A stretch of DNA of 64,000 bases from NCBI RefSeq assembly GCF_000786105.1, contig NZ_JTEV01000025.1, positions 1 through 64,000 on the forward strand. Direction: 5' to 3'. The DNA comes from Bdellovibrio sp. ArHS (lineage in GTDB: Bacteria > Bdellovibrionota > Bdellovibrionia > Bdellovibrionales > Bdellovibrionaceae). Below the pieces are notes generated by a model. That model searched no databases. It was not told where the DNA came from and saw only the letters and a program-made list of their open reading frames with translations. The translations under genes and the position numbers were made by a program. Positions 47,368 through 62,528 of the stretch are shown piece after piece. Each line of letters starts with the position of its first letter. Positions within the stretch are counted from its first letter, which is position 1.

Positions 47368-48042
47368 ATGTCAAAAAAAATTATGGGTCTTGCCACTGTT
47401 CTTCTCTGCTTTATTTCAACAAGTAACAGCTACGCCAAAGAGATTCCCGTGCAAGGCCGTCTTTTTGCGGGCACTCATAGTATCGATCCTAAAAATGTCA
47501 ATGAGACCACGGAAGCCCAGGGACTAAAAAAGTTTGAAAACATCAACCGCTTGGGAATTGAAATCACCTATCCTCTGTATCGCTATCTCGATGTGGGAAT
47601 GCGCTACACCAAGAGGCTTGCGGATGTAGAAGAAAATCCGGCCAACTCGGCAACGGATTATAGTGCCAAGATCGATCAAGATTCGATTCTTCTGCTCGCG
47701 CGGGTGCCTCTTTATAAAACAGATATCCTGCATTTCGATTGCTATGCGGGTGTCGGGGGCAGTAACACCAGCTTGAAAATCAAGACGGCAAGTCAGGATG
47801 GCGAATTCGCCCGACGAGCTTCCGGTGATTGGGTGGCGACACCCTACGCAGCGGCTGGCGCTTCTCTTTCGATCGGGTATAAAAAGTTCTATCTTGTTTT
47901 TGAAGGCGGCTATGAAAGCAATAAGGTCGACGGATTCACTCGTACCGGAACCGCCAGCACGAACATCGATACCTTGGATCTTTCAGGCAGCTATTTTTCG
48001 ATCGGCCTGATGTTTGATGGCGTGCCGGGCACAATCAAATAG
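47368..48042 (+). CDS. Outer-membrane beta-barrel protein
   Basis: 224 residues, signal peptide to about residue 24 (NSYA-K). The mature part alternates as in OmpA/OmpW-like eight-strand barrels (LGIEITYPLYRYLDVGMRYT, FDCYAGVGGSN, YFSIGLMFDG). No loop or motif identifies a substrate. The terminator after it also serves the convergent BNR gene. Confidence 0.65.
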   Translation: MSKKIMGLATVLLCFISTSNSYAKEIPVQGRLFAGTHSIDPKNVNETTEAQGLKKFENINRLGIEITYPLYRYLDVGMRYTKRLADVEENPANSATDYSAKIDQDSILLLARVPLYKTDILHFDCYAGVGGSNTSLKIKTASQDGEFARRASGDWVATPYAAAGASLSIGYKKFYLVFEGGYESNKVDGFTRTGTASTNIDTLDLSGSYFSIGLMFDGVPGTIK

Positions 48043-48104: not shown

Positions 48105-50612
48105 CTATTGAGAACTGTCGAGGACTCTGAGGATGGTTCGGGCTCCCAGGTACGCATCGTTGTAAGTGTAATTCAGTAAGAGTTCTGTGGAGCTGAGACT
48201 GTAAAAACGTTTTTCGGTGAGTTCGGTGCCGTATTCACCGATGCTTTCGCCGACGGTATATCGGTCGTCGATTTTTTCGATGATAGTCCACGTGCCGGGT
48301 GTAAATCCTTCGGTCACAACCACGTCTCCGTCAGTGGGATCCTTGACAAGGAAGTAGGGGATCGTGCCGCTCCAACCGATATCGAGTACGTTTGCAGGGG
48401 TACTAAAGGGACTCCATGTGGCGCCATTGTCGGTCGACTTGAACATGTTAGAGCCATTGTAGGCATAGACGTCGCCTGTCGGGCTTATCTTCAAAGCAAA
48501 CGAGACTTCCCAATAGTTGGGGAGTGAAGAACCGCGCAGGGCTTCGCTCCACGTAGTGCCGCCATCTGATGAGCGATACACTACGATCGTTGCATCGAAA
48601 TTGATTTGTTCCATGATGATCAGATAGACATTGCCGGCGGTGTCCACCTCTAAAGATTTGGGTTTGATCGAATGAACCCCGCCGGGCAAAGCAAAAGTTT
48701 TTACATGAGACCAGGTTGTTCCATCTGTCGTTTTGCCGACGACTATATTTGCGCCATCTTGTCCCGCGAAATAAGTCGCCGTGGTTTTGTTTGTAGCCAA
48801 GAAGTAATCCCATCCCGGGAAGGCGTACGAGTGCACATCATTCCAAACCGTGCCATCCGTCGATCTGCGTATGGCGGCACCGCCGTTTTTAGTGCCTATA
48901 GCGTAAAGAGCGCCATCATGTCCTTGAATAATATCACTCACGTAGGCGTCGTTCGAGGCGGGGACGAAGCGATCTGAATCCTGCCAGGTAAGACCATTAT
49001 CCAAACTTTTTGTGACGACCCACGGAGAATTTCCATCCATATCGTCGGTGTCAAAGATAGCGTACAAAGTTGTTGGCGAAGTGCGAATGATTTCCGTGAC
49101 GGTACTATAGAAAGCCCATGCAAAGCGGATTTCACTTCCCAGACTCCAGGTGGCCCCATCGTCGCCGGAATAGGCCACCGCTGCTTGATAATCTGTTTTG
49201 TTCGAGCCAATAGCTAAAATCTTGTTCAGGGTCGGATGCGATACGATCGTCAATCCATAGGGCCCTTTAGGTGGAGACAGCAAAGCATCAAGATCTAAAG
49301 GAGTCCACACCGTACCATTTGTAGAAGAGACGATTTTCCAGTCATAGGGATTCGTAGCTCTGTTACCGCCAGTGGCGATCAACTGGCCTGAAGCGGTCAC
49401 CGTCATGCCTTGTAAAAAACTTTGGCCTGAATACACCTCAGCCCAGTTAGCGCCGCCGTCTGTCGTGCGATAAATCTTTCCCAACGCGCCCACGCGGCAT
49501 GAGAAATAGGCCGTGTTGTCGTCAATGACCTGCAAGTTGCCACGCAACTCGTAATCGCCGTAGGTTTGCACAGCGGGAACGGAGGTTGCGGGCGTCCAAG
49601 TCCAGCTTCCCGAACTGAATGTGCCTTTAAGGAAATACATCGTCGCGGAAGGACCGGAGGCGCCGATCACAAAAAGATCGCCTGAAGGAGACACTTTGAC
49701 TTGATAAGCGATGTCGCTACTGCCTCCTGCGAGGGGGGCCGCCTGATAGATTGTGTTCCAAGTCACACCATCGTCTTTACTTTCGCGAATTACCCAGAAC
49801 TGGTCTGTCGTGGATTCAGCGTAACCGACCGCATAGATAAATCCTGTCGTGGGGGACACTGCGATGTCATAGCAGACATGATTAGATCCAGCGACTTCCC
49901 ACCAGTGATCGGAAGTGGTCCAGGTGTTGCCTTCATCGGTAGACCGTCTAACAAACCAGCCCGAGCCGGGATCTGATGGTGTCGTGTCATACGCGTAGGC
50001 GTAACCGCAGACAAAAACAATACTGCCTTTTGCCGTCATCGCTAAAGGGTGGGATTCACCGTGATAGTGGTAACCCATAAATTGATCGACGCGATTCCAA
50101 GTGCCGCCGTCGTCGCTGCTGCGATAAGTGGCCCAGCGTTCGCCTTCGTAGTCACTTCCCACCGCCGTCGTTAAGACCTTACCTGAATCCAGCCATACAG
50201 CATCTGTAATGTAGTTCTGATCTTGCGCCGATTGAGGCATATCGATTCGTCTGAATTCGCGGAAGCCTTTACGATGAATGGTTACGGCGAAAGTTTTTCC
50301 GGTGCTATCAATGACCTCAAGAATTTCATCCACGACTTGCGCATTGGCAGGAATCGAGTACTGTCCTGTTGCGGTGTCAAGATAACCTGATGTCGAAGGT
50401 TTATAAGTGAAAGGCGGTGTTCCTCCGGCAGGCTCAATGGTCATAGAGGAACCAACATCCAAAGTAAGAACTACGGGGACGGCGTCGCTGTCCGAGATAA
50501 TTTTGGAAGTTAAATCTGTTTGAAGAGAAGCATCTATCGAACATGCTGTCAAAAGAAGTATGAAACAAATGACAATCAATTTCCGAGACGTACCGAGTAT
50601 GATGTGATTCAT
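48105..50612 (-). CDS. Large Asp-box (BNR) beta-propeller lipoprotein
   Basis: 835 residues. Lipobox LLTAC (Cys24). After a ~100-residue N-terminal region, at least eleven Asp-box motifs (SxDxGxxW) recur about every 50-60 residues: SSDDGGTW, STDEGNTW, SKDDGVTW, TTDGGANW, STNGTVW, SGDDGATW, SLDNGLTW, STDGTVW, TTDGTTW, SSDGGTTW, STDNGATW. This predicts one or two beta propellers of sialidase, Ycf48 or sortilin type. The Arg triad of true sialidases is not evident, so it may bind glycans or proteins. Promoter not seen. Confidence 0.82.
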   Translation of the reverse strand: MNHIILGTSRKLIVICFILLLTACSIDASLQTDLTSKIISDSDAVPVVLTLDVGSSMTIEPAGGTPPFTYKPSTSGYLDTATGQYSIPANAQVVDEILEVIDSTGKTFAVTIHRKGFREFRRIDMPQSAQDQNYITDAVWLDSGKVLTTAVGSDYEGERWATYRSSDDGGTWNRVDQFMGYHYHGESHPLAMTAKGSIVFVCGYAYAYDTTPSDPGSGWFVRRSTDEGNTWTTSDHWWEVAGSNHVCYDIAVSPTTGFIYAVGYAESTTDQFWVIRESKDDGVTWNTIYQAAPLAGGSSDIAYQVKVSPSGDLFVIGASGPSATMYFLKGTFSSGSWTWTPATSVPAVQTYGDYELRGNLQVIDDNTAYFSCRVGALGKIYRTTDGGANWAEVYSGQSFLQGMTVTASGQLIATGGNRATNPYDWKIVSSTNGTVWTPLDLDALLSPPKGPYGLTIVSHPTLNKILAIGSNKTDYQAAVAYSGDDGATWSLGSEIRFAWAFYSTVTEIIRTSPTTLYAIFDTDDMDGNSPWVVTKSLDNGLTWQDSDRFVPASNDAYVSDIIQGHDGALYAIGTKNGGAAIRRSTDGTVWNDVHSYAFPGWDYFLATNKTTATYFAGQDGANIVVGKTTDGTTWSHVKTFALPGGVHSIKPKSLEVDTAGNVYLIIMEQINFDATIVVYRSSDGGTTWSEALRGSSLPNYWEVSFALKISPTGDVYAYNGSNMFKSTDNGATWSPFSTPANVLDIGWSGTIPYFLVKDPTDGDVVVTEGFTPGTWTIIEKIDDRYTVGESIGEYGTELTEKRFYSLSSTELLLNYTYNDAYLGARTILRVLDSSQ

Positions 50613-50735: not shown

Positions 50736-53288
50736 CTACAGCCCCACGGCCAGCCAATCAATACGGTATTTATTCGTGTTGTGGGGAAGAGTTGTGGTAT
50801 TGCAATTCGTGGCATCGAAACTTCCCATCAGATTAATGTAAATTCGAAAGCTTGTCGCTGTGGGGGTATAAACCGAGGTTGCCCCGGTTGTAACCCAATG
50901 TCCGCCATCGCCTTGAATTGAAGGAAAGTATCTAAATACGGTCGAAAAGCCACAAGCTGAAGTGTCGATATTCATGTAGGCCCCACAGGAGCCCGTGACC
51001 GCAGAATGCAGACTGTAATAAGTCCAGCCTGAATTGGCACTGGTTCCGCTGCACATTCTGAGGGCCGTTCCCGACGTATCCTTGACCGCTCCCACTAAGT
51101 TGCCCGTGATCTTGGCATTCCCGGCGACCTCCAATTTAGCCGAGGGAGTTGTTGTCCCAATACCGACATTGCCATTGTGATCGATGCGCATTCTTTCGCC
51201 GCCATTGACCTCCGTGTTGGTGGTTGTAGTAAATCTTAACGCCGACCCATGCCCCACTGTGCTCCAGTTTTCGGTGGCGATGGCACTGACTCCGGTGGGT
51301 TGTGCTTGGGTTGAGAATCCGACGCCATCGTGTCCCAGAAAGGCCATCCAGCCGAAGGTGTCGTTGGTTTGTGTCGCTGTCGGCGCACTGGCGGTTCCGC
51401 GCGCGCCGCGGGTTTGCATCAATCCTCCAGGATTGGAATTTGCGATGGTGGTTGAAGTGATGCCGCGACTGGTGGCGCCGCTTGTTTCTAAAACCTCCAA
51501 GCTTGTTGCGGGAGCTGCCGTACCAAGCCCTGTCTTGCCATCAGGAAGAATAGTCATCGCCACGGAGTTATTGGTTTTAAAACTTAAAGACTGATTGTCA
51601 TTCGTTCCCAACACGGCCGAGACGCCAAAAGAGTTCCCATTGTTCAAGAACACTGAACTGGTTGTGAACGAGGAACAAGTCATCATTCCAGTGGCATCGA
51701 AAGTCAGTATTTGTCCGTGACCGCAGTTGAATGCGGTTAATGCTGAACCCGTCCCGTTGGTAGCCACTAAACGATTGGCAAGGATGGACGTCGCCCCGGT
51801 GCCCCCTTTAGATACCGGCACGGCAGACGGGAAGGTGGTCGGGTCGGCAGAAACCACTCCTGCGTTGACCGCAAGACCATTTCCGACTTGCATCGCTCCT
51901 TTGCTTGTCGCACTGGCATCATCGATCGTAATCACGGGTGTTGTGCCACCCGATGAAACGACAATCGGAGCCGTGCCAGTGACGTTGGTGACGGTTCCAT
52001 TTGTTGGCGTCACCCATTGCAGTCCAGAAGCTTGGGTGGTGTTGACGGAAAGGACCTGTCCATTCGTGCCCGAAGGCAGGCGAATATCATTGGTACCATC
52101 GTTCACTAACACGTCCCCCTTGGTGGTGAGTGGTGAAAGTGCATTAAAGGCGGCTAGTGCTGTTGCCTGTCCCGTTCCGCCATTAGCAACCGGCAAGACA
52201 CCTGTTACTTCGGTGGAAAGACTGACAGCTGCACCAGAACTGGCCGAGGTCAGTCGTCCTTGGGCATCGACAGTGATTGTGGCCCGCGTGTAAGAGCCCG
52301 CCGTCACGGTGGTATTTGCTAGTGAAATTGTTCCGGTTGTGGAAATCGGACCGCCGCTCAGCCCGGTTCCTGTCACGATGTTGGTGACTGTGCCGCCGGC
52401 GTTGTTATCCGCAGCGGGAGCCCATTTGGTTCCATCATATTTCAAAACTTGTCCCGCAGTGGGGGCTAGGGCGCTGACCGCGGTATTCTGAATTTTTGCG
52501 ACGACGGGGTTGGGATAGGTGCCTGATAAATCTCCTGCCGCCGCTCCGGTGGGTGTTCTGGCGTCACTGAAACGAGCGTCGTCTCCGGCAGCAACGGTTC
52601 CAGCGACGGCACCGATGTTTAAAGTCAGCGCTGGCGTGGAGGTAGTATTGGCGATAGACAGGTAAGCATTGGTTGAGGTGACCTGGGTGACAGTACCACC
52701 AGCAGCCCCAGAAACCGGCGCACACGTAAGGGCCGCCCCTGTCCAGGTCAGAAATTCATTGGCAGAACAGGTGGGTAAACCTGCTTTTAAAAGGAACTCG
52801 TCGGCGGATCGTGTCCCAAGTTTTTCGGCAGAAAGAGCATAAGCGGAGTAGGGGACCGAGCGGATCTCGTTGGCGGGTGAGATCACTTTCCAACCGGTCC
52901 CGTCGTGGAATTGCACTTTCAAAAGACGAATATCCATAGAAGCGGCAGTGTAAGTGGCTCCGCCATAGCAGTTGTGAATTTTGGAATTGTTAAACGCATC
53001 CAACAAAGTAAAAAGGGGATCTGACGGAAAGAGCTTTGTGCCTGAACCGATGGGGACATCAAAAACGCCGTTGGAATTCAAAAGATTCACACCATCGCGC
53101 TGTTCGCGGTAAATGACGCAGCTGCCATTAGGATTTGTAATCTCGAAGATGAAACTGGTGCTTCCATATTCCAACGGGTGCCCATCGCTTTTGACGATGC
53201 GCCCTTGATAGGTCAAAGCATTGGGCGCCGCCGTCGCGAGCGTCCCAAAAAGAGATATGAGAATAAAAAGATACGTGCCTGTTCTCAT
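50736..53288 (-). CDS. Mosaic adhesive fibre protein 1 (phage tail-fibre-like)
   Basis: 850 residues. Signal peptide 1-20. A conserved head domain (~22-170) shared with the protein at 57743. Then fibre repeats: GTVTNV, LSGTYPNP, GVLPVANGGTGQAT and VSKGGTGAT. Near the C-terminal third are triple-stranded stalk signatures MTILPDGKTGLGTAAP and MRIDHNGNVGIGTTTPS, ending in a ~115-residue tip (WTYYSLHSAVTGSCGAYMN ... YRIDWLAVG) that looks like an H-type-lectin-like domain. The pattern matches the mosaic adhesive trimers described for Bdellovibrio, whose tips bind prey surfaces. No clear SD before ATG 53288. Confidence 0.75.
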   Translation of the reverse strand: MRTGTYLFILISLFGTLATAAPNALTYQGRIVKSDGHPLEYGSTSFIFEITNPNGSCVIYREQRDGVNLLNSNGVFDVPIGSGTKLFPSDPLFTLLDAFNNSKIHNCYGGATYTAASMDIRLLKVQFHDGTGWKVISPANEIRSVPYSAYALSAEKLGTRSADEFLLKAGLPTCSANEFLTWTGAALTCAPVSGAAGGTVTQVTSTNAYLSIANTTSTPALTLNIGAVAGTVAAGDDARFSDARTPTGAAAGDLSGTYPNPVVAKIQNTAVSALAPTAGQVLKYDGTKWAPAADNNAGGTVTNIVTGTGLSGGPISTTGTISLANTTVTAGSYTRATITVDAQGRLTSASSGAAVSLSTEVTGVLPVANGGTGQATALAAFNALSPLTTKGDVLVNDGTNDIRLPSGTNGQVLSVNTTQASGLQWVTPTNGTVTNVTGTAPIVVSSGGTTPVITIDDASATSKGAMQVGNGLAVNAGVVSADPTTFPSAVPVSKGGTGATSILANRLVATNGTGSALTAFNCGHGQILTFDATGMMTCSSFTTSSVFLNNGNSFGVSAVLGTNDNQSLSFKTNNSVAMTILPDGKTGLGTAAPATSLEVLETSGATSRGITSTTIANSNPGGLMQTRGARGTASAPTATQTNDTFGWMAFLGHDGVGFSTQAQPTGVSAIATENWSTVGHGSALRFTTTTNTEVNGGERMRIDHNGNVGIGTTTPSAKLEVAGNAKITGNLVGAVKDTSGTALRMCSGTSANSGWTYYSLHSAVTGSCGAYMNIDTSACGFSTVFRYFPSIQGDGGHWVTTGATSVYTPTATSFRIYINLMGSFDATNCNTTTLPHNTNKYRIDWLAVGL

Positions 53289-53502
53289 CTAAAAGACTTA
53301 TCGGATGCCATAGAACTTTCATTAAGTTAATGGGGAGGTAAGAGGAACTGGGCTCGTATTTACGACCTCCATCTGCAAATGGATTTAATTTGCCGCTTAG
53401 CATCAGCGAGCCTAAAGTCTTGCTTTGACTCCCTGCGTTCGGCTTAACCTATGAAAGTCATTCATTAAAATTCGTTAACATCTCGTGAAGGATCAAGCGA
53501 CC

Positions 53503-55260
53503 GTGAGTAAGATTACCAAAAGTAGCACCGCTGAATATTTTGCGAAGAACCTCCAACAGGTGGGATTTTCGTCTCCTTTGAAAGCCGTTTTGACGACTTT
53601 AAAAGAAGCCGTGGACAACTCTTTGGATGCGTGTGAGCAAGCGGGCATTCTTCCTGATCTTCTAGTTGAAGTCACCAAAGTAGGAACGGGTTCTACTAAA
53701 AATACTGATTTAATTCGCATCGTTGTCGAAGATAACGGACCTGGAATCGAAGCTGAAGATCTTGCCAAAGTTTATGGTGAGTACTTGGCTTCGTCAAAAT
53801 TTGGTCGTGGACAGTGTTCACGCGGTCAGCAAGGTATTGGTATCTCTGCGGCGACGACGTGGGCGCAAATGACCAATGCCCGTGGTGTAAACGTTATTTC
53901 CAAGACCAAAAAGATGCGTAAAGCGATCTCTGCGCAAGTGGATGTCGACATCAAATCCAATACAGGTGTTCTAAAAAATAAGGAAACTTTGGACTGGGAT
54001 CGTGAACACGGAACTCGTGTTGAATTCGTTCTTGATGGACGTATTCAGTTAAACGGTGACGGCGGTATCGTGACTTATATTGAGGGCACAATCCTGGTAA
54101 ATCCGCATATGACCATCACTTACAAGTTGATGGAAAACGACTATGTGACTGTGAACCGTGTCAGCACGGATGTGCCGCAAGTTCCCGAGGCGTCCTTGCC
54201 TCATCCTCACACGTTTAAACTGGGCGAGTTCATCACGCACTCCACTTTGTTCGGAAAAACCACGCTTTCTAAGTTCTTAAAGACCGGTTTTTCGCGTATT
54301 TCGGACCAGTCTATCTCTGAATTTACAAAAAAAGGTCTGCCTAAAAATCTTTTGGAAAAACCTCTGACTTCATTGACGGAAGAGGATTTTAAAAAGGTGT
54401 TCCAAGCCGTGCAAAACACGGACTTGATGGCGCCTTCCACGAAGTCAGTTTTGACGGTAGGGGAAGAAGCTCTTTCTAAATCCATCACTCGTCTTGGTGA
54501 AATCGACTTCTTTGCGGTGGTGACACGTAAACCGACAATCTGTGACTTTAAACCGGTTGTGGTGGAAGTCGCATTGGCGCGTTTCAAAGACCGCTATCAA
54601 GAGGCCGACAGCCCAGTGACTTTGCTTCGTTTCGCGAACCGTGTGCCATTGCAATTTGATAAATCAGGTTGCGCAATCACCTGGGCGATTGAGTCTGTGA
54701 ACTGGAAGTCCTATGGTTTGGGACAACCCAAAGACAGCTTGCCGCTAGGTCCTTACATCTTTGCAGTGTCTGTGGTTTCGCCATTCATCAAGTTTAAAAA
54801 TGCTTCGAAAGAAACGATTGATGCTTCCGAAGAGTTGGTGGCAGAAATTCGTTTGGCTTTGATTCAAGCTGGTCAAAGACTGTCTCGTCACATCAAAAAA
54901 GAAGTGAAAGAGGCGGATCTTGAAAGAAAACTGGCGCACATCGAGCAGTTCGGTCCAATCTTGGTTGAAGGTTTGGCGCGTATCATTAATGCTCCCGAGT
55001 CTCGTAAGAAAAAGGCTGAAGAAGGTTTGAAAAAACTTTTAGGTCGCGATTCTGAAGAGGCGATCGCTGATTTGGAAGCGGCGGAATCTAAACTTCTTGA
55101 GCAGAAAAAGCGCGAGAAGAAAAAGGGCATCGATCACGAGATCGAAGAAGACGTGATCAGCAGTGAAGATCTTGTCGAAGAAGCCTCTGAGTCGGCGGGC
55201 ACGAAGAAGACGACGACAAAAAAAGAAACGACTAAAAAAACAACTGGTAAAAAGAAGTAG
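53503..55260 (+). CDS. top6B: DNA topoisomerase VI subunit B
   Basis: ATPase subunit of a type IIB topoisomerase, which passes one duplex through another. 585 residues. The GHKL ATPase has the N box KEAVDNSLDA (Glu35, Asn39, Asp42), G1 EDNGPGI and G2 GQQGIGI. H2TH and transducer regions follow, with GLGQPKDSLPLG carrying the ATP-contacting Lys. The last ~100 residues are coiled-coil and Lys/Thr-rich. GTG 53503 has AAGGA at 53488-53492; the longer frame from GTG 53485 has no SD. The next gene is subunit A, 8 bases on. Topo VI is typical of archaea and plants and uncommon in bacteria. Confidence 0.93.
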   Translation: MSKITKSSTAEYFAKNLQQVGFSSPLKAVLTTLKEAVDNSLDACEQAGILPDLLVEVTKVGTGSTKNTDLIRIVVEDNGPGIEAEDLAKVYGEYLASSKFGRGQCSRGQQGIGISAATTWAQMTNARGVNVISKTKKMRKAISAQVDVDIKSNTGVLKNKETLDWDREHGTRVEFVLDGRIQLNGDGGIVTYIEGTILVNPHMTITYKLMENDYVTVNRVSTDVPQVPEASLPHPHTFKLGEFITHSTLFGKTTLSKFLKTGFSRISDQSISEFTKKGLPKNLLEKPLTSLTEEDFKKVFQAVQNTDLMAPSTKSVLTVGEEALSKSITRLGEIDFFAVVTRKPTICDFKPVVVEVALARFKDRYQEADSPVTLLRFANRVPLQFDKSGCAITWAIESVNWKSYGLGQPKDSLPLGPYIFAVSVVSPFIKFKNASKETIDASEELVAEIRLALIQAGQRLSRHIKKEVKEADLERKLAHIEQFGPILVEGLARIINAPESRKKKAEEGLKKLLGRDSEEAIADLEAAESKLLEQKKREKKKGIDHEIEEDVISSEDLVEEASESAGTKKTTTKKETTKKTTGKKK

Positions 55261-55268
55261 GTTGAACG

Positions 55269-56432
55269 ATGGGAAAACTACTCAGCATTCGTGAATTAAA
55301 AATTGATATTCCCAAAGAAGCCCGCATTTTGGCCGACAAGATGCTTAGGGATCTTGAGTCTTCAAAGCGTCCGGTTTTAGAGGCGGTAAAAACATCTCTG
55401 GATAATTCTTTGTACAACTCTAAAGTGGGTTACCTCACGCCGGGGGACAAAGTTGTCCGTACTGAACTGAACGTTTCTTCTGTTCAGAAGCTAGCGCGTG
55501 TGGTTTTCGTTTTGGAAATCCTTTTGAACAACCTGGACAAAGGCGCGGTAAATACAAAGCGTGAGCTTTATTACATGTGTAAAGGTCTGATTAAAGGGAA
55601 TCCTCGTTTGAAGCCGTTGGATTTCGACGACCAACCGGAATCAGACGCGATCATCGATTTCATCGGTGATATGCTTGAAGTGTACCGTGAAGAATTGAAC
55701 TGTTTCGCCAATGACCGTGGGGGTCAGACGTACTCTCAACAACTGGTTGTGACCGAAACCTTGCCGGATGGCGATAAGGCCGTTGTCGATCTTTCGACTT
55801 TGGGTACTTCCCCATTCCAACCGAAGAACAAACCTCAGTCTTTGAAGTTGAAAGCGAAAAAGAAAATCGATTTCTGCTTGATCGTTGAGTCTGAAGGTAC
55901 GGCGAATACTTTGGTCACGATGGGTTTCACTCGTCGTAACAACTGTATCGTGATGGGTGCGCAAGGGGTTCCATCGAACGGCGTGCGTGGTTGGTCGAAA
56001 TTGATCCAGGAAGAGTTGGACGTGCCAATGTACTTCTTCGGGGATCTCGATGCGTACACATTGCAAAACATCTTCCGTACTTTGAAAGCGGGATCGGCGG
56101 CATCTTTGATTCGTAATGCTGACTTCTCGGCTCCGAACGTCAAATTCTTGGGCGTTTTGCCTGAAGACGTGAAGAAATACGATCTTCCTCACTACAAAGT
56201 GAAAGAATCCGATCCAGCTGAAGCGCGCGCTCTGAAAAAAGCCAAAGACGCTTTGGAAAACGATCCGTTCTTCTTGGACAAAAAGAACAAAAACTTGGCG
56301 GACATCCTACGCTGGTTGATCAAAGAAAAGATTCGTTGTGAGCAACAGTCTTTCTTCTCTGTCGACCCGAACGATCCGATCAAGACCGAAAAATTGATCT
56401 TGGAAAAGATCAAAAGAGGTTCTTACGTATAG
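55269..56432 (+). CDS. top6A: DNA topoisomerase VI subunit A (Spo11-like)
   Basis: DNA-cleaving subunit. 387 residues. The 5Y-CAP domain has TKRELYYMCK with the candidate catalytic Tyr at Y101/Y102. The Toprim domain has the metal Glu207 in IVESEGT and the DxD pair Asp259 and Asp261 in FFGDLDAYT. KAGSAA follows as in archaeal proteins. All catalytic residues are present, so the pair is likely active. Directly downstream of top6B and followed by a terminator: a two-gene operon. Confidence 0.93.
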   Translation: MGKLLSIRELKIDIPKEARILADKMLRDLESSKRPVLEAVKTSLDNSLYNSKVGYLTPGDKVVRTELNVSSVQKLARVVFVLEILLNNLDKGAVNTKRELYYMCKGLIKGNPRLKPLDFDDQPESDAIIDFIGDMLEVYREELNCFANDRGGQTYSQQLVVTETLPDGDKAVVDLSTLGTSPFQPKNKPQSLKLKAKKKIDFCLIVESEGTANTLVTMGFTRRNNCIVMGAQGVPSNGVRGWSKLIQEELDVPMYFFGDLDAYTLQNIFRTLKAGSAASLIRNADFSAPNVKFLGVLPEDVKKYDLPHYKVKESDPAEARALKKAKDALENDPFFLDKKNKNLADILRWLIKEKIRCEQQSFFSVDPNDPIKTEKLILEKIKRGSYV

Positions 56433-56470: not shown

Positions 56471-56651
56471 TTGTGGGCAAAGGAACTCTTCCTTTCTAGC
56501 CAAAGAAAGTGAGGGGATCGCCTTTGACACTGTTGCTTGTCGCCACGGTGGCGGTCGAAGTCTATGTTGAAGTTCCTGGCTGGCTTCCCGAGTTGTTCGC
56601 TTGAAAAATTGATGTTAGCGTTTCTAAAACATCTTTTCTTTGGAACTTTCT

Positions 56652-57476
56652 ATGAAAACGCTTTCTGTTCTTTTTGCAATCTTCCTGCTGACAGCCTGCT
56701 CAACGGCACCAAAAAAGTCTGCAACGGAAAAAATGTCTTCAGAAAATTTTTTCGCCGGCAAGAAGGGCTGTTTTCTTTTGTTCAATATGAAAACCGGCAG
56801 TTACGACAAAGTGATCGGGGACGAGGTTTGTAAAGAACGTTATCCGGCATGTTCAACCTTCAAAGTTCCTTTGGCGGTGATGTCGTTCGATGCGAAGGTG
56901 CTGAAAGACGAAAATGAAGTTTTGCAGTGGGATGGCCATAAAGATATTCGCCCGGAAGTAAATCAAGATCACGACGCCAAGACTTGGATGAGAGACTCTG
57001 TCGTTTGGTTTTCGCAAAGACTGACACCGAAAATGGGAAAGAAGAAGTTCCAGAAATATTTGCGCGATTTCAACTATGGCAATCAAGATATTTCCGCGGG
57101 AATTAAAACGGCTTGGTTGAAACCTCCTCAGCAAAATGGACTGCAGATCACGGCTTATGAGCAGGTGGAATTCATGAAAAAACTTTGGACCGAGCAGTTG
57201 CCTGTGTCGCAAAGGTCGATGCAACGGGCTCGGGAAATCACCTATCTTGAGACCTCGCCGCAAGGTTTTAAGTTGCATGGTAAAACCGGTTCTAATTTTT
57301 ATGATCAGCAACGCAAGATCAATTTTGGCTGGTTCATCGCGCACCTTCAGAAAGATGGCCAAGAATATATTGCCGTGACCAATCTGAGCGATTTAGCGCC
57401 TTCTGAGGAAGGTTATGGTGGTCCTCGGGCTAAGCGAATCACTAAGCAGATCTTGGCATCTGAAGGTCTGTGGTAA
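56652..57476 (+). CDS. Class D (OXA-type) beta-lactamase, lipoprotein
   Basis: 274 residues from ATG 56652. Lipobox LLTAC (Cys16). All class D motifs are present: S68-T-F-K71, S116-V-V118, Y142-G-N144 and K211-T-G213, so it should be an active serine hydrolase, either beta-lactamase or a penicillin-recognising relative. The start at 56640 (TTG) is less likely. It lies between topoisomerase VI and fibre protein 2 on the same strand, with no resistance-element features around it. Confidence 0.9.
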   Translation: MKTLSVLFAIFLLTACSTAPKKSATEKMSSENFFAGKKGCFLLFNMKTGSYDKVIGDEVCKERYPACSTFKVPLAVMSFDAKVLKDENEVLQWDGHKDIRPEVNQDHDAKTWMRDSVVWFSQRLTPKMGKKKFQKYLRDFNYGNQDISAGIKTAWLKPPQQNGLQITAYEQVEFMKKLWTEQLPVSQRSMQRAREITYLETSPQGFKLHGKTGSNFYDQQRKINFGWFIAHLQKDGQEYIAVTNLSDLAPSEEGYGGPRAKRITKQILASEGLW

Positions 57477-57742
57477 CCAAACACTTCATTTTTAAAAATA
57501 TTTAATCTTACTTAAACCGGGCACGTTTCCTTGTGTCCGTTGAGTCAAACGAAAAAAATCTTCAAACAACTCGCATAGATTAGACTTCATTTTGGAAAGA
57601 TGTCTTTTCGTGCCGCCTCAAGTTCCATTCTTACCACCTGCAGACACATCGGACTCACACCGATAGAAATTCGGAAACGAGTTTTACTAGGAATATTGTG
57701 TCTATCTCGCGGATTTCAACAACTAGATTTGGAGATACTTGT

Positions 57743-59890
57743 ATGTGCAGAGCAAGGCAAATGAGCGGTCTGTTTTGGGTGATGGGTTGCCTTAGTATTT
57801 ATTCAGCCGTAGCGGGGGCTTCGCTGAACACGCTCACCTATCAGGGGCGAATCACGGGGGACAATGGGGCACCTCTGGAATATAATAACGTCAGTTTCTT
57901 TTTTGAAATCACAGATCCGTCGGGCAATTGTGTAATTTATAAAGAGCAAAAAGACGGCGTCAATATGACAGGTTCCAAAGGTCTTTTTGATGTGGCGATT
58001 GGTTCCGGCACCAAACAGTTTCCCGCAGACCCACTCTTCAAACTTTTGGATGCTTTTGCAAATAACAACGTTACTTTCAACTGTGCGGCGGGAGGCACTT
58101 ATCAGTCTTCAGCCGGGGCCCTTCGTCTGTTGCGAGTGCAATTTCATGATGGCAGTTTGTGGCATCAGATATCTCCTGCAAACGAGATAAGAAGCGTTCC
58201 TTATGCCGCTGTGTCGTTTTCTGCGGAAAAGTTAGGAACATTCTTGCCGACAGATTTTCTTTTAAAGACGGCGTTGCCCGCCTGTGCTCCAGGTCAGGTT
58301 CTTTCGTCGAATGGCACGACCATCAGCTGCGTGGTCGATTCGGGCGGTGGTGGAACCGTCAGCACGGTGACTGGCACCGGCCCTATTACTACGTCAGGAA
58401 CCACGGCGATTACTGTCGGAATTGATGTCGGAACGACGGCAGGGACTGTCGCCGCTGGGAATGATGCTCGTTTCACCGATGCGCGGACTCCAACGGGAAC
58501 TGCAGGCGGCAGTCTTAGTGGCACGTATCCCAATCCGGGTATTGCCGACGGGGCTATTTCAACGACCCAGCTTTTTTCCAATCCGGGTATTAATAGACTT
58601 GTCGCCACGGATGGAGTGACCGGAGCAAACCTCGCCCCGGTCACATGTGGAACTTTGGATCATATTCTAAAATGGTCCGGGACAGGTTGGAGTTGCGCAA
58701 GTGCCTCGTCTTTGATTGCCGCGGATTTTAAAGCGGATGGCTCAGTGCCTATGACGGGGGCTTTGCTAGCGGCCTCAGGAACAGCGGCGGCTCCCTCGAT
58801 TTCTTTTGCCAGTGATTCCGGAACCAACACAGGACTTTTCCGGGCGGCCGAAGATGTTCTGGGTGTAGCGACGGCAGGCAGTGAACGGATGCGCATCGAT
58901 GCCAATGGAAATGTTGGCGTGGGAACTTCTTCGCCCACGGCGCTTCTGCATTTAAGTACTCTGACAACCCAGAATCGTATTTTACAAAATTCCACCACGG
59001 GGGCCAACGAGCATGCGATGAGTACGCAAGGCGGTTCGAATATTTTGAATATGAGTTATGCGGCAGCGGGGAACACGGCACCGGCCAGTGGAAATATTTT
59101 GGGGGCCTGGACGTGGTCGTCTTATGACGGCAGTGCGTATGGAAATGCGGCGAGTATTCGCGTCGAATCCGATGGCGCGGCTTCAAGTGGTAATACACCC
59201 GGAAAAATCAGATTCTTGACTACACCCACGGGTTCTGTGAATCCCATTCCACGCGTGGTCATTGATAAAAACGGCAACGTCGGTGTGGGAACTTCGACGC
59301 CGGGCTACCTGGTGGATGTGCACACGACCAATGCGACGTCAGGCATTCGCGTGTCCAACGATGATTCAACCTCCACACAAAATCCTGCGATGTTGGTTTC
59401 TAATCACATGGGAACGGCGCTGACGGGACGACCGATGTTTGTTGTGCAATCCAGTCGCGGCAGTGCCAGTGCGCGCACGGCCGTTCAGGCCGGAGATTCG
59501 TTAGGAGGCTTCTTTGGTTTTGGCTATGACGGAGCCGCTTTTTCCGAGGGCGCACGTATCGAGTTCATTGCGACAGAACCCATATTTTCCGGCGCCGGCC
59601 GTGGCAGTAAAATTTATTTCCAAACAGTCAGTAATGGTTCGACGACCTCCAACACGCGAATGGCCATTGATCACAACGGCAATATTGGTATTGCGACGGT
59701 GACCCCAGTGGAAAAACTCGATGTGAATGGCAACATGAAAGTAAAGAAGAATTCATCGGAACCCTATCCTTGCGATATCGATCATGACGCCGTGTTGGCG
59801 ATCACCTCAGGCTATCGTCAATGTATCTGCAAAGGTGGAACGGCAACGTGGGTTTACACCTCTGATGGTTCCACGAGCTGCGTCTGGTAA
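57743..59890 (+). CDS. Mosaic adhesive fibre protein 2
   Basis: 715 residues from ATG 57743 (GGAG 57732-57735); signal peptide to about residue 26. The head domain (~28-165) closely parallels fibre 1: LTYQGRI, PLEY, DPSGNCVIYKEQKDGVN, IGSGTKQFP, ISPANEIRSVPYAA, SAEKLGT. Repeats LSGTYPNP, then MRIDANGNVGVGTSSP, VIDKNGNVGVGTSTPG and MAIDHNGNIGIATVTP build the stalk. The tip is a different, short Cys-rich domain (YPCDIDHDAV ... CICKGGTATW) of about 45 residues. A polysaccharide lyase follows 46 bases on. Confidence 0.78.
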   Translation: MCRARQMSGLFWVMGCLSIYSAVAGASLNTLTYQGRITGDNGAPLEYNNVSFFFEITDPSGNCVIYKEQKDGVNMTGSKGLFDVAIGSGTKQFPADPLFKLLDAFANNNVTFNCAAGGTYQSSAGALRLLRVQFHDGSLWHQISPANEIRSVPYAAVSFSAEKLGTFLPTDFLLKTALPACAPGQVLSSNGTTISCVVDSGGGGTVSTVTGTGPITTSGTTAITVGIDVGTTAGTVAAGNDARFTDARTPTGTAGGSLSGTYPNPGIADGAISTTQLFSNPGINRLVATDGVTGANLAPVTCGTLDHILKWSGTGWSCASASSLIAADFKADGSVPMTGALLAASGTAAAPSISFASDSGTNTGLFRAAEDVLGVATAGSERMRIDANGNVGVGTSSPTALLHLSTLTTQNRILQNSTTGANEHAMSTQGGSNILNMSYAAAGNTAPASGNILGAWTWSSYDGSAYGNAASIRVESDGAASSGNTPGKIRFLTTPTGSVNPIPRVVIDKNGNVGVGTSTPGYLVDVHTTNATSGIRVSNDDSTSTQNPAMLVSNHMGTALTGRPMFVVQSSRGSASARTAVQAGDSLGGFFGFGYDGAAFSEGARIEFIATEPIFSGAGRGSKIYFQTVSNGSTTSNTRMAIDHNGNIGIATVTPVEKLDVNGNMKVKKNSSEPYPCDIDHDAVLAITSGYRQCICKGGTATWVYTSDGSTSCVW

Positions 59891-59936
59891 AAAGGACTTA
59901 ATAGATTTTCTGTTTCAATCTCAATAAGGAGAAGTG

Positions 59937-62528
59937 ATGAGTCCGGTTAATTTATTCCATCTGCGTACGATAATCTTGGTGTCGACCGCCTTCTTAACGG
60001 CTTCTTGCGAATTCGGTTCCGGCGGCAAAGAAATTCAGGCATCAAAAAAGGCTCCCGAGGTTTCTCCGGCGCCGCCTCCTTCATCAAGTGCGCCTCCGCC
60101 TTCCACGGTGGGCACACCTCCAGGATCAGTTCAGCCAGCGCCCCCCGCGAGCGAGCCACCGCCCGAGGAAAATGAAACACCTCCGACGCCGACAGAGTCT
60201 CCTCCTGTGGAGGAGCCACCGCCTGTGCAAGAGCCGGAGCCAACTCCAACGCCAACTCCTGCGCCGGTACCGGAAACGCCGCCGTCGCCAGAACCGCCCG
60301 CGGAACCGGAAGTGCCGCCAACAACGGAAAATCCTCCTCCCGAGAGTGAGCCTGCTCCCGTTGTAGTTTGTACGCCGAACACAGTTCAGGACTGGATGGC
60401 TAGTGGCAATGCTTTGGCGCAAGTCGTGCGGCCTACAGATTGTAACACCGTCGAGCAAACGCCGCCGGATTTCCGTTGGCCTGACGTCGCGACATCCGGG
60501 GGCTATCAAGTGACCCTGACTTATCCCAATGGTTCAACGAAGACTTTGAATGCGTCTCAGAACTGGTTGAATTGGGATGAAGTGTTGCCAGTGGGAACTT
60601 ATTCATGGGTGGTTAAAAATCCAGCCGGCGTGACCAGCGCGCCCCGAAAATTTATCGTCGATGCGAATTCGAAACCGTTTGTAGTTCCGAATATCTCGAC
60701 GTTATTAAGTACAGTATCCGCGAAAACGCATCCACGTTCGTTGCCTGAGGCATTGACTTTAGAGTTAATGAAGACGCAGCGACAGTCCGCGATCAATTCA
60801 CTGTTAAGTCAGGTCAACAGCCGTCTTTCGCAAACTCTTCCCAATCCAGGAACGACGGCGACGGATTGTTTTAACTACAGTAAATATGCCCTGGCGTCTT
60901 TGCAGGCCTGTGTTTTCAGCGGGCAGACCAGTTATTGTAACGATGCGATTAATAGAGTCATGAATTTGGCGTCGTGGGATCCGAATGGCCCGACGAAATA
61001 TTCTCTTCCGGCCGGGACAGATATGGCGGCTCGATACCTGACTTGGACTGTGGCGGTGGGATACGATTGGCTGTATTCGCGCCTGACTTCCGCACAACGG
61101 TCGCAGATTTTGGCGATGCTGATCGCGCGCAATGGGTTGATGTATAACGATATTATCGGGACACGCTCGCGAATCTCAGTCAATCCCCGCGACTCTCACG
61201 GCAATCAGACTTTAACTATCGTCGCTGTTATTGCGTCGCTGGTGGTCGGCGATCTTCCCGAGGCGAATACCTGGTTTACGAATGCGCTTCCTCAGGCGGT
61301 GAACGCGATCAACCCTTGGGCGGACGAAGACGGTGGTTTTGCCAACGCGGCGACTCAGGGAAATTGGGATGTCGGTGAAATGTTGCCATCGCTTTACCAA
61401 CTTCGTTACGGAACAGGAATCGATGTGGCGCAAAAACCGTGGATTCGAAACTGGGGTCGTTATTTCGCTTACTTCACGCCGCCAGGAATGTCAGAGTTCA
61501 CGACAGTTTTCGGTGACGGGTTTGAACGGAATCAAGGCGAGCAGCAGGCGCGATACGGAAAAGGTTACACGTTTTTTTCGCCATCACCCTTGGGCCGCTG
61601 GCACATGTCTAAAATCAGTGGAGAGGATCGGACTCGTATCGAATACCTCTTGGCGCCTCCTGCCGATTTTACCGGAACTCAGCCTTTCCCTGAAGGAACA
61701 CCCCACGCGCTTTGGTTGAAGTCCATCGGGCAGGTGGCAATGCATAGTGATCTGTCTAATCTTGCCAGAACCTCGGTGTACTTTAAATCCAGTCCAAAGC
61801 CTTATGGCGCTTTTAATCACAGCCACGCGGATCAAAATAGTTTTGTCATCAACTCGGGAGGCAAAAGACTGGCCATCGAGTCAGGTTACTATGACGACTA
61901 TAAAACGCCGCATTGGCTGAAGTGGTATCATACGACGAAGGCGAAAAATGCCGTGACCTATGACGACGGCAAGGGACAGGTCTTCTATGAAGTGAATAAT
62001 AAAATGGGATCAGGGGACGTCACTTTATTCAAGCACACCCCAACCTATGACATTGTCAGCGGTGATGCGACATCTGCCTATGATGGAGCTTTATCGAAAG
62101 CCAAGCGAACTCTGGTCTATTTACGTCCGAATTTGGTGGTGGTGTATGACGACCTGGCATCGACAACGGCCCGTCAGTGGGAGTGGAATATTCATGCGCT
62201 CAATCAGATGACCTCTTCGAACAATACTCAGGCTAAGATCACCAATGGCAGTGAAACTCTTTGTATCGATGTGCTTGCTGGACCTGGCGTGCAGTTTTCT
62301 CAGCATAATATCTTTACCGAAAACCCGTCCAATGGAGGGGCCGCTCAGTGGCATGGAAAGTTTTATAATGCGACAAGAACAACCAATGCCGAGTTTGTCG
62401 TTCTGCTGAATATCGGCTGTTCAACGTTAACAGCGTCAGCAACAAAGACTTCGGGAAAGTGGAATATTCAGGTGGGAAATCGAAGTGTGAGCATTGAAGC
62501 GGGAGCTGTGACGGTTCAAGATCCCTAA
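59937..62528 (+). CDS. Heparinase II/III (DUF4962-type) polysaccharide lyase lipoprotein with proline-rich stalk
   Basis: 863 residues from ATG 59937 (AAGGAG 59926-59931). Lipobox LTASC. Residues ~30-145 are a Pro/Glu/Thr-rich stalk. Then an Ig-like segment ([20 protein letters not shown]), an alpha-helical toroid (~240-560, [15 protein letters not shown]), and the C-terminal heparinase II/III-like beta-sandwich with [16 protein letters not shown] and VVYDDLAST. Such enzymes cleave acidic polysaccharides by beta-elimination; substrate unknown. It follows fibre protein 2 by 46 bases, probably one operon. Confidence 0.82.

Follow-up and report, generated by a model that had tools for sequence, protein, structure and literature searches.

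A mosaic adhesive trimer fibre of Bdellovibrio with an exchangeable, probably H-type-lectin-like tip

Introduction

By what means predatory bacteria manage to recognise a wide variety of prey is an open question, to which the mosaic adhesive trimer (MAT) fibres have provided part of an answer. The stretch of DNA analysed here—a 64,000-nt window from Bdellovibrio sp. ArHS—carries a gene for such a fibre (fibre 1; 50736–53288, minus strand), whose C-terminal end looks unlike that of a second fibre encoded nearby (fibre 2; 57698–59890, plus strand). What is this end, how did it come to sit on a MAT-type shaft, and what might it hold? The MAT principle, including the swapping of tips, is already published (PMC10769870). 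New are the type of tip, relative to those in the main text of that paper, its remote lectin-fused relatives, and an allelic exchange at the locus of a crystallised fibre, Bd1334.

Results

Fibre 1 belongs to the MAT family by homology

The fibre 1 gene is an unbroken open reading frame of 850 codons with an ATG start, and the encoded 850-aa protein, which gave no match in a Pfam search over its whole length, terminates in ...NTNKYRIDWLAVGL. Judged by eye, approximately the first 20 residues (MRTGTYLFILISLFGTLATA; 53229–53288, minus strand) form a signal peptide. Behind it lie a conserved β-rich N-terminal domain, the head (about residues 21–170; 52779–53228, minus strand), with homologues in the same genome and in the genome that encodes Bd1334 and Bd2133 (G003), and a repeat-bearing shaft (about residues 171–735; 51084–52778, minus strand). 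The shaft varies in length among orthologues, the whole proteins measuring 850, 1072 and 1158 aa. The remaining residues, 736–850 (50739–51083, minus strand), make up the tip, for which an H-type-lectin- or pyocin-foot-like β-sandwich is predicted. A preliminary description of this DNA had delimited the tip as the last ~115 residues with two or more cysteines, ending in YRIDWLAVG. There are in fact four cysteines, kept in all six Bdellovibrio tips that we found, and the motif is present but is not final, since a leucine follows it (YRIDWLAVGL).

In a sequence search of the PDB, residues 561–745 of fibre 1 matched solved Bdellovibrio MAT entries (8ol4, 8oml, 8on4, 8ond and 8ojn; E 5.9e-11 to 7.1e-6). 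Two fibre open reading frames in G003, of 1031 and 1151 aa, are Bd2133 and Bd1334, respectively: the former matches 8ond/8ok3 (Bd2133) at residues 663–1031 and the latter 8oml/8on4 (Bd1334) at 818–1151, residue numbers that agree with those in Caulton et al. 2024 (PMC10769870). Residues 9–756 of fibre 1 aligned with full-length Bd1334 (31% identity) and residues 6–721 with full-length Bd2133 (34% identity), the head match to Bd2133 being one that BLASTP returned without composition adjustment and missed with it. The tip alone matched neither protein.

Because of these PDB matches and full-length alignments, MAT membership of head and shaft, as asserted in the preliminary description, can be taken as established at the sequence level. 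Fibre 1 displays the hallmarks of the family, namely a conserved β-rich domain of ~130 aa directly after the signal peptide (the former recognised by homology to Bd1334 and Bd2133, the latter by eye), a shaft homologous to the solved MAT β-helix fibres, and a variable C-terminal tip that is interchangeable among fibres. Judged on homology, fibre 1 is thus a secreted MAT-family fibre, and by analogy with the MATs to which it is homologous it would assemble as a trimer. Its head and shaft are alike in sequence to the NS74 subgroup of the MAT superfamily of B. bacteriovorus HD100, which includes Bd1334 and Bd2133; the HD100 MATs carry their variable tip in the equivalent place and show head–tip chimerism of a like kind (PMC10769870).

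The tip is a module independent of the head

The genome encodes at least 17 MAT-type fibres, counted as open reading frames in stretches where the head or the shaft of fibre 1 has a match, leaving aside one fragment at the end of contig C11 and two non-fibre reading frames within those stretches. When the 17 were compared pairwise (E ≤ 1e-3), heads matched in 114 of 136 pairs and the last 120 residues in 25 of 136; the last 120 residues of fibre 1 matched none of the other 16 fibres at this threshold. The nearest paralogue by head (L038), whose head is 71% identical, ends in an unrelated tip. Between fibres 1 and 2, the heads are 56% identical over 188 aa, and the last shaft modules are still related (residues 578–730 versus 520–685; 36% identity over 170 columns) just before the two proteins reach their ends, which in fibre 2 is a short, cysteine-containing module of ~45 residues unrelated to the fibre 1 tip. 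The end module of fibre 1 is independent of the head that it is joined to, and the earlier assertion that the tips of the two fibres differ completely while their heads match is borne out. The short module of fibre 2 itself contains four cysteines and matched no Pfam family.

A Peptidase_S74 chaperone domain closes seven of the 17 fibres (Pfam, above cut-off). Neither fibre 1 nor fibre 2 has one at its C-terminus; for fibre 1 there was no match even at E ≤ 1, and its tip has no sequence similarity to the S74 tips. A match of the tip to a non-binding chaperone domain, which the preliminary description had named among the findings that would speak against it, did not turn up for S74 in a search in which the positive controls matched.

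One further candidate for a copy of the tip in the same genome (C36:30768; E 0.005, and 0.28 in another search) was rejected as a chance match, because it lies about one third of the way into a long fibre that ends in S74.

The tip has been exchanged at the Bd1334 locus

A tip 57% identical to that of the window occurs in B. bacteriovorus kdesi (G010), on a shaft with 68% identity to that of Bd1334 across an alignment of 795 columns, in which most blocks reach 70–90% up to kdesi residue 611. Past this residue, similarity to Bd1334 drops and similarity to the window tip starts. At the DNA level, the two shafts share 75% identity across 1661 nt, and the genes downstream of the kdesi fibre are colinear with the neighbours of Bd1334 in G003, in two blocks separated by an insertion (the first of 2938 nt at 81% DNA identity, the second of 3282 nt at 73%). 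Given the shaft identity and the colinear downstream genes, one strain has the crystallised Bd1334 tip and the other a window-type tip at a single locus, and the alignments thereby document a natural tip exchange at the Bd1334 locus. The tip-bearing kdesi reading frame (L054:6555-9050) lacks a MAT head, so this copy may be dead; it could be inactive, a relic, or a reservoir of tip sequence.

The fibres of the two nearest relatives of the window strain (G005 and G008) offer a second sign of segmental replacement. Their genes are mostly 80–95% identical in DNA; from about residue 800, identity falls to 74–77% with an indel of 86 residues, and it recovers to 95% in the final complete block of the tip. 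Taken with the nearest paralogue described above, the kdesi case substantiates the swappability that had been proposed for these tips: on the evidence of the alignments, the tip has been exchanged between fibres.

The tip recurs in three separate lineages of the genus

Among 24 Bdellovibrio genomes, six from three separate lineages carry the tip, and a search of 368 genomes of the phylum found no further carrier at E ≤ 0.001. Identity to the window tip is 83–84% in the two nearest relatives and 52–68% in the three others. The tip is not random sequence, given this conservation across relatives. In a tree of the topoisomerase VI region, the six carriers fall into three groups, such that three changes are needed, and a single clade of carriers was rejected (p-AU 8e-69).

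The topoisomerase VI genes lie next to fibre 1, with the B and A subunits encoded at 53485–56432 (plus strand). The B subunit is 88–98% conserved in 22 of the 24 genus genomes; in seven of these 22, an in-frame TAA stands right where the match begins, so that those genomes probably use a later start codon.

In G005 and G008, the tip is found at the same site beside these genes; the fibres that bear it measure 1158 and 1072 aa, respectively. In G023 the slot is occupied by two fibres in tandem, one with an end that looks S74-like by eye and one with a fibre-1-type tip, and the slot in G025 holds a fibre whose end is likewise S74-like by eye. For 16 of the 22 genomes with topoisomerase VI genes, no such fibre was seen within ~8–10 kb beside them; four of the 16 have a fibre with a 32–38% identical head ~8 kb away.

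In G021, the fibre of this slot is in two parts, its head half (L080:417-3170) and its tip half (L055:8922-10727) lying ~560 kb apart. The head half continues into sequence that we take to be prmC-like, and the tip half stands beside a crp-like gene and is preceded by genes that we presume, from their sequence, to be LemA- and TPM-like. Either a rearrangement inside the fibre or a wrong assembly at this place would account for the split.

Remote relatives suggest that the tip is a carbohydrate-associated module

Searching the proteins of 72,556 plasmid records returned two usable homologues of the tip, related to it in sequence along most of its length. One is Nostoc sp. HK-01 BBD63629.1 (tip residues 32–113; E 2e-8, 35% identity over 82 aa), annotated as the xylanase xlnA, in which the tip-like domain is followed by a ricin-type β-trefoil lectin domain (Pfam E 1.8e-36). 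The other, from Embleya, is an unannotated 136-aa reading frame that consists of the domain alone (E 2e-5). A third match, in Pseudooceanicola, was dropped (E 0.1). Across the eight sequences, thirteen columns are invariant, including W63, G67, Y72 and T75—all within the predicted loop L3—and a final I-x-W. The remote relatives are not part of a fibre, being joined to a ricin-type lectin in one case and alone in the other, and they lack the four cysteines of the fibre 1 tip, which are kept in Bdellovibrio only.

Other collections added nothing to this set. The domain matched no Pfam model; sequence searches with the tips gave nothing relevant in the PDB (best E 0.19, to a 70-residue lysin chain) or in PHROGs (one match, E 0.39), and no relevant relative among viral contigs and phage records. 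The homology as a whole suggests a carbohydrate-associated module, for which the Nostoc lectin fusion is the best sequence evidence.

The predicted fold resembles H-type lectins and pyocin feet

A first AlphaFold2 model of the tip, built from the six homologues (pLDDT 75, pTM 0.64; the other four models 46–63), is all-β. Ranked structurally among Foldseek PDB candidates, it scored best against the R1 pyocin foot (Z 7.0), discoidin II (6.9), and the agglutinins of Helix aspersa (6.8) and Helix pomatia (6.7), with discoidin I, SLL-2, AP22 gp53, the R2 pyocin and the phi297 and Pam1 tailspikes following down to Z 5.0, all of these values, like those of the second model, being below 8, a level at which the tool warns that a match may reflect a common arrangement. 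Ranks 1–8 and 10–16 were all H-type lectins or phage and pyocin feet (Z 7.0–5.0), and later rows reached at most 4.5; an unrelated envelope protein of a shrimp virus (Z 6.3) stood amid these top matches. A second model (pLDDT 69), for which the kdesi tip served as query, again had AP22 gp53, both Helix agglutinins and the R1 and R2 pyocins in its top 12 (Z 4.8–5.3); its best row was an unrelated chain (Z 6.0), and the rows after it included jelly rolls of capsids and receptor-binding domains of Tc toxins. Median identities of lectin or foot rows versus other rows were 16 versus 8 for the first model and 12.5 versus 9 for the second, a descriptive comparison, as the rows are redundant and were sorted by names already known.

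Foldseek alone found no PDB match for the first model at E < 1, and none in the PDB or BFVD at E ≤ 0.001. The MAT tip structures of PMC10769870 were absent among the structural matches listed for both models. The Pfam H_lectin family (PF09458) matched none of the six tips at E ≤ 10; no genus genome had a protein over its cut-off, against two of the 368 genomes of the phylum, both outside the genus. Of the H-type lectin guessed at in the preliminary description, then, the fold survives as a prediction, and the homologue fused to a ricin-type lectin points the same way, but membership of the Pfam family does not hold. We regard the tip as a probable H-type-lectin-like sandwich, a statement that refers to the models.

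In the R-pyocin foot, reported to be a discoidin-like lectin domain, the distal loops L1, L3 and L5 form a sugar-binding network (PMC6363177), and AP22, SLL-2, discoidin II and the H. pomatia agglutinin are the nearest folds of that foot (PMC6116203). In the fibre 1 model, predicted loop L3 comprises tip residues 60–77 (GGHWVTTGATSVYTPTAT; 50853–50906, minus strand), between strands 49–59 and 78–86, and predicted loop L5 comprises residues 87–104 (50772–50825, minus strand), between strands 78–86 and 105–114. L5 includes P100, H101 and N102, which are invariant in the six Bdellovibrio tips and not kept in the remote relatives. In L3, nine of 18 columns are invariant in the six tips, not significantly above the remainder. 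Conservation of the loops was not higher than in the rest of the domain (p 0.11 and 0.40).

The comparison with known systems can be made more precise. As is predicted for fibre 1, a lectin-like sandwich ends a long fibre in the R1 and R2 pyocins, with their C-terminal foot, and in phage AP22 gp53 (6cxb, 6cl5, 6ct8, 4mtm), the likeness of predicted fold lying at Z 5.4–7.0 for the first model and 4.8–5.3 for the second; however, the fibre 1 tip has no detectable sequence similarity to these feet and is borne by a cell rather than a tailocin or phage. The H-type lectins (H. pomatia and H. aspersa agglutinins, discoidins I and II) are alike in predicted fold (Z 6.2–6.9, 13–18% identity, 85–91 residues), but their Pfam family is the one that failed to match. 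The tip also falls outside the MAT tip types in the main text of PMC10769870—S74, two β-sandwiches of their own, TNF-like, and C-type lectin—where 'H-type', 'discoidin' and 'pyocin' occur 0 times. Our literature searches found no H-type lectin paper with Bdellovibrio and, since 2023, no paper joining tail fiber, lectin, adhesin and Bdellovibrio. The predicted fold suggests a phage- or pyocin-type lectin foot on the fibre of a cellular predator, by descent or convergence.

A probable role in prey recognition

What would such a fibre do? We consider it probable that fibre 1 is a MAT fibre with a predator-anchored head, a projecting shaft and a 115-residue C-terminal module that recognises a prey surface glycan. 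The N-terminal domain would keep the fibre on the surface of the predator, and the repeat-rich shaft would space the tip off that surface, so that three tip copies might present their distal loops (L1, L3, L5) to LPS or another sugar of the prey envelope. Recombination in the conserved last shaft module would then swap the tip and change prey range. The glycan role draws on analogy with the pyocin foot and with Bd2439, a MAT with a TNF-like tip that binds prey LPS (PMC10769870); on these parallels, binding of a prey surface glycan through the distal loops is the most likely function of the tip. Exchanging tips would probably be a way for the predator to change which prey can be held, and the natural replacement of the crystallised Bd1334 tip at one locus supplies a clean pair for relating tip to prey preference.

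Alternatively, the tip could be a ligand-free trimerisation or capping domain that replaces the S74 chaperone and merely ends the fibre. That a folding domain such as S74 closes other MATs, and that conservation is spread across the tip instead of focusing on the loops would both fit. We nevertheless think this unlikely: the tip neither matches S74 nor resembles the S74 tips, its homologues occur beside a ricin-type lectin or alone, without a fibre that would need a cap, and the predicted fold resembles ligand-binding feet.

Recognition of a prey glycan, our preferred reading, might involve a partner. Directly downstream of fibre 1 lies the gene of a putative lipoprotein with BNR repeats (48105–50612, minus strand; β-propeller-like; Pfam BNR_2, lipobox by eye). 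Within the 24 genus genomes, its orthologues (55–66% identity; loci L112-L117 among them) are found in exactly the six that bear the tip, other BNR proteins, in four further genomes and as extra copies, being only 26–33% identical. For two control genes the distribution was different: the heparinase-like gene 3' of fibre 2 occurs in one of the 24 genomes and as a fragment in a second, and a β-barrel-like gene (47368–48042) in 19. In three of the six genomes (G023, G010 and G021), the BNR gene is unlinked to the tip-bearing fibre; there it lies near a recG-like gene (named by eye), in G021 also adjoining another fibre. The lipoprotein may be a partner of the tip, given that the two share the same six genomes even where unlinked; with three lineages too few for a test, the pairing stays a lead. 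A more ambitious proposal, which we hold to be possible but doubtful, is that the tip represents a new lectin family, a plug-in prey-recognition module forming a two-part system with a co-inherited, secreted BNR-propeller lipoprotein that reads or processes the same prey glycan. If true, tip and BNR gene would have been acquired or lost as a pair in three lineages, though unlinked in half of the genomes.

The same shared distribution can be turned another way, towards a lectin-like tip whose target is not prey at all but would be the envelope of the predator itself, a different Bdellovibrio cell, or a partner protein such as the BNR lipoprotein. Some MATs do act inside prey or at the vesicle, not at first contact, yet Bd2439, with its different tip fold, binds prey LPS (PMC10769870). 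The lack of linkage in three of six genomes also weighs against this reading, to which we assign a lower probability than to the capping domain. Finally, it is highly improbable that the fibre 1 gene is decaying or unexpressed and its mosaic structure a by-product of recombination between repeats: its shaft is 222–308 residues shorter than in G008 and G005, the copy in kdesi lacks its head and that in G021 is split by a rearrangement, but the genes of the window, G005, G008 and G023 are intact reading frames, the tip is conserved across long divergence, and in those comparisons of the window, G005 and G008 that yielded a dS estimate, dN is well below dS (in several comparisons dS was saturated or could not be computed, which limits what dN/dS can tell).

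Other genes near the fibres

The control gene after fibre 2 (59934–62528, plus strand) encodes a heparinase II/III-like putative lipoprotein with a proline-rich stretch. A fibre accompanied by a glycan-active lipoprotein may thus be a recurring pairing. Between the topoisomerase VI genes and fibre 2 lies the gene of a putative lipoprotein with a penicillin-binding transpeptidase-type domain (56640–57476, plus strand), which we take to resemble class D β-lactamases.
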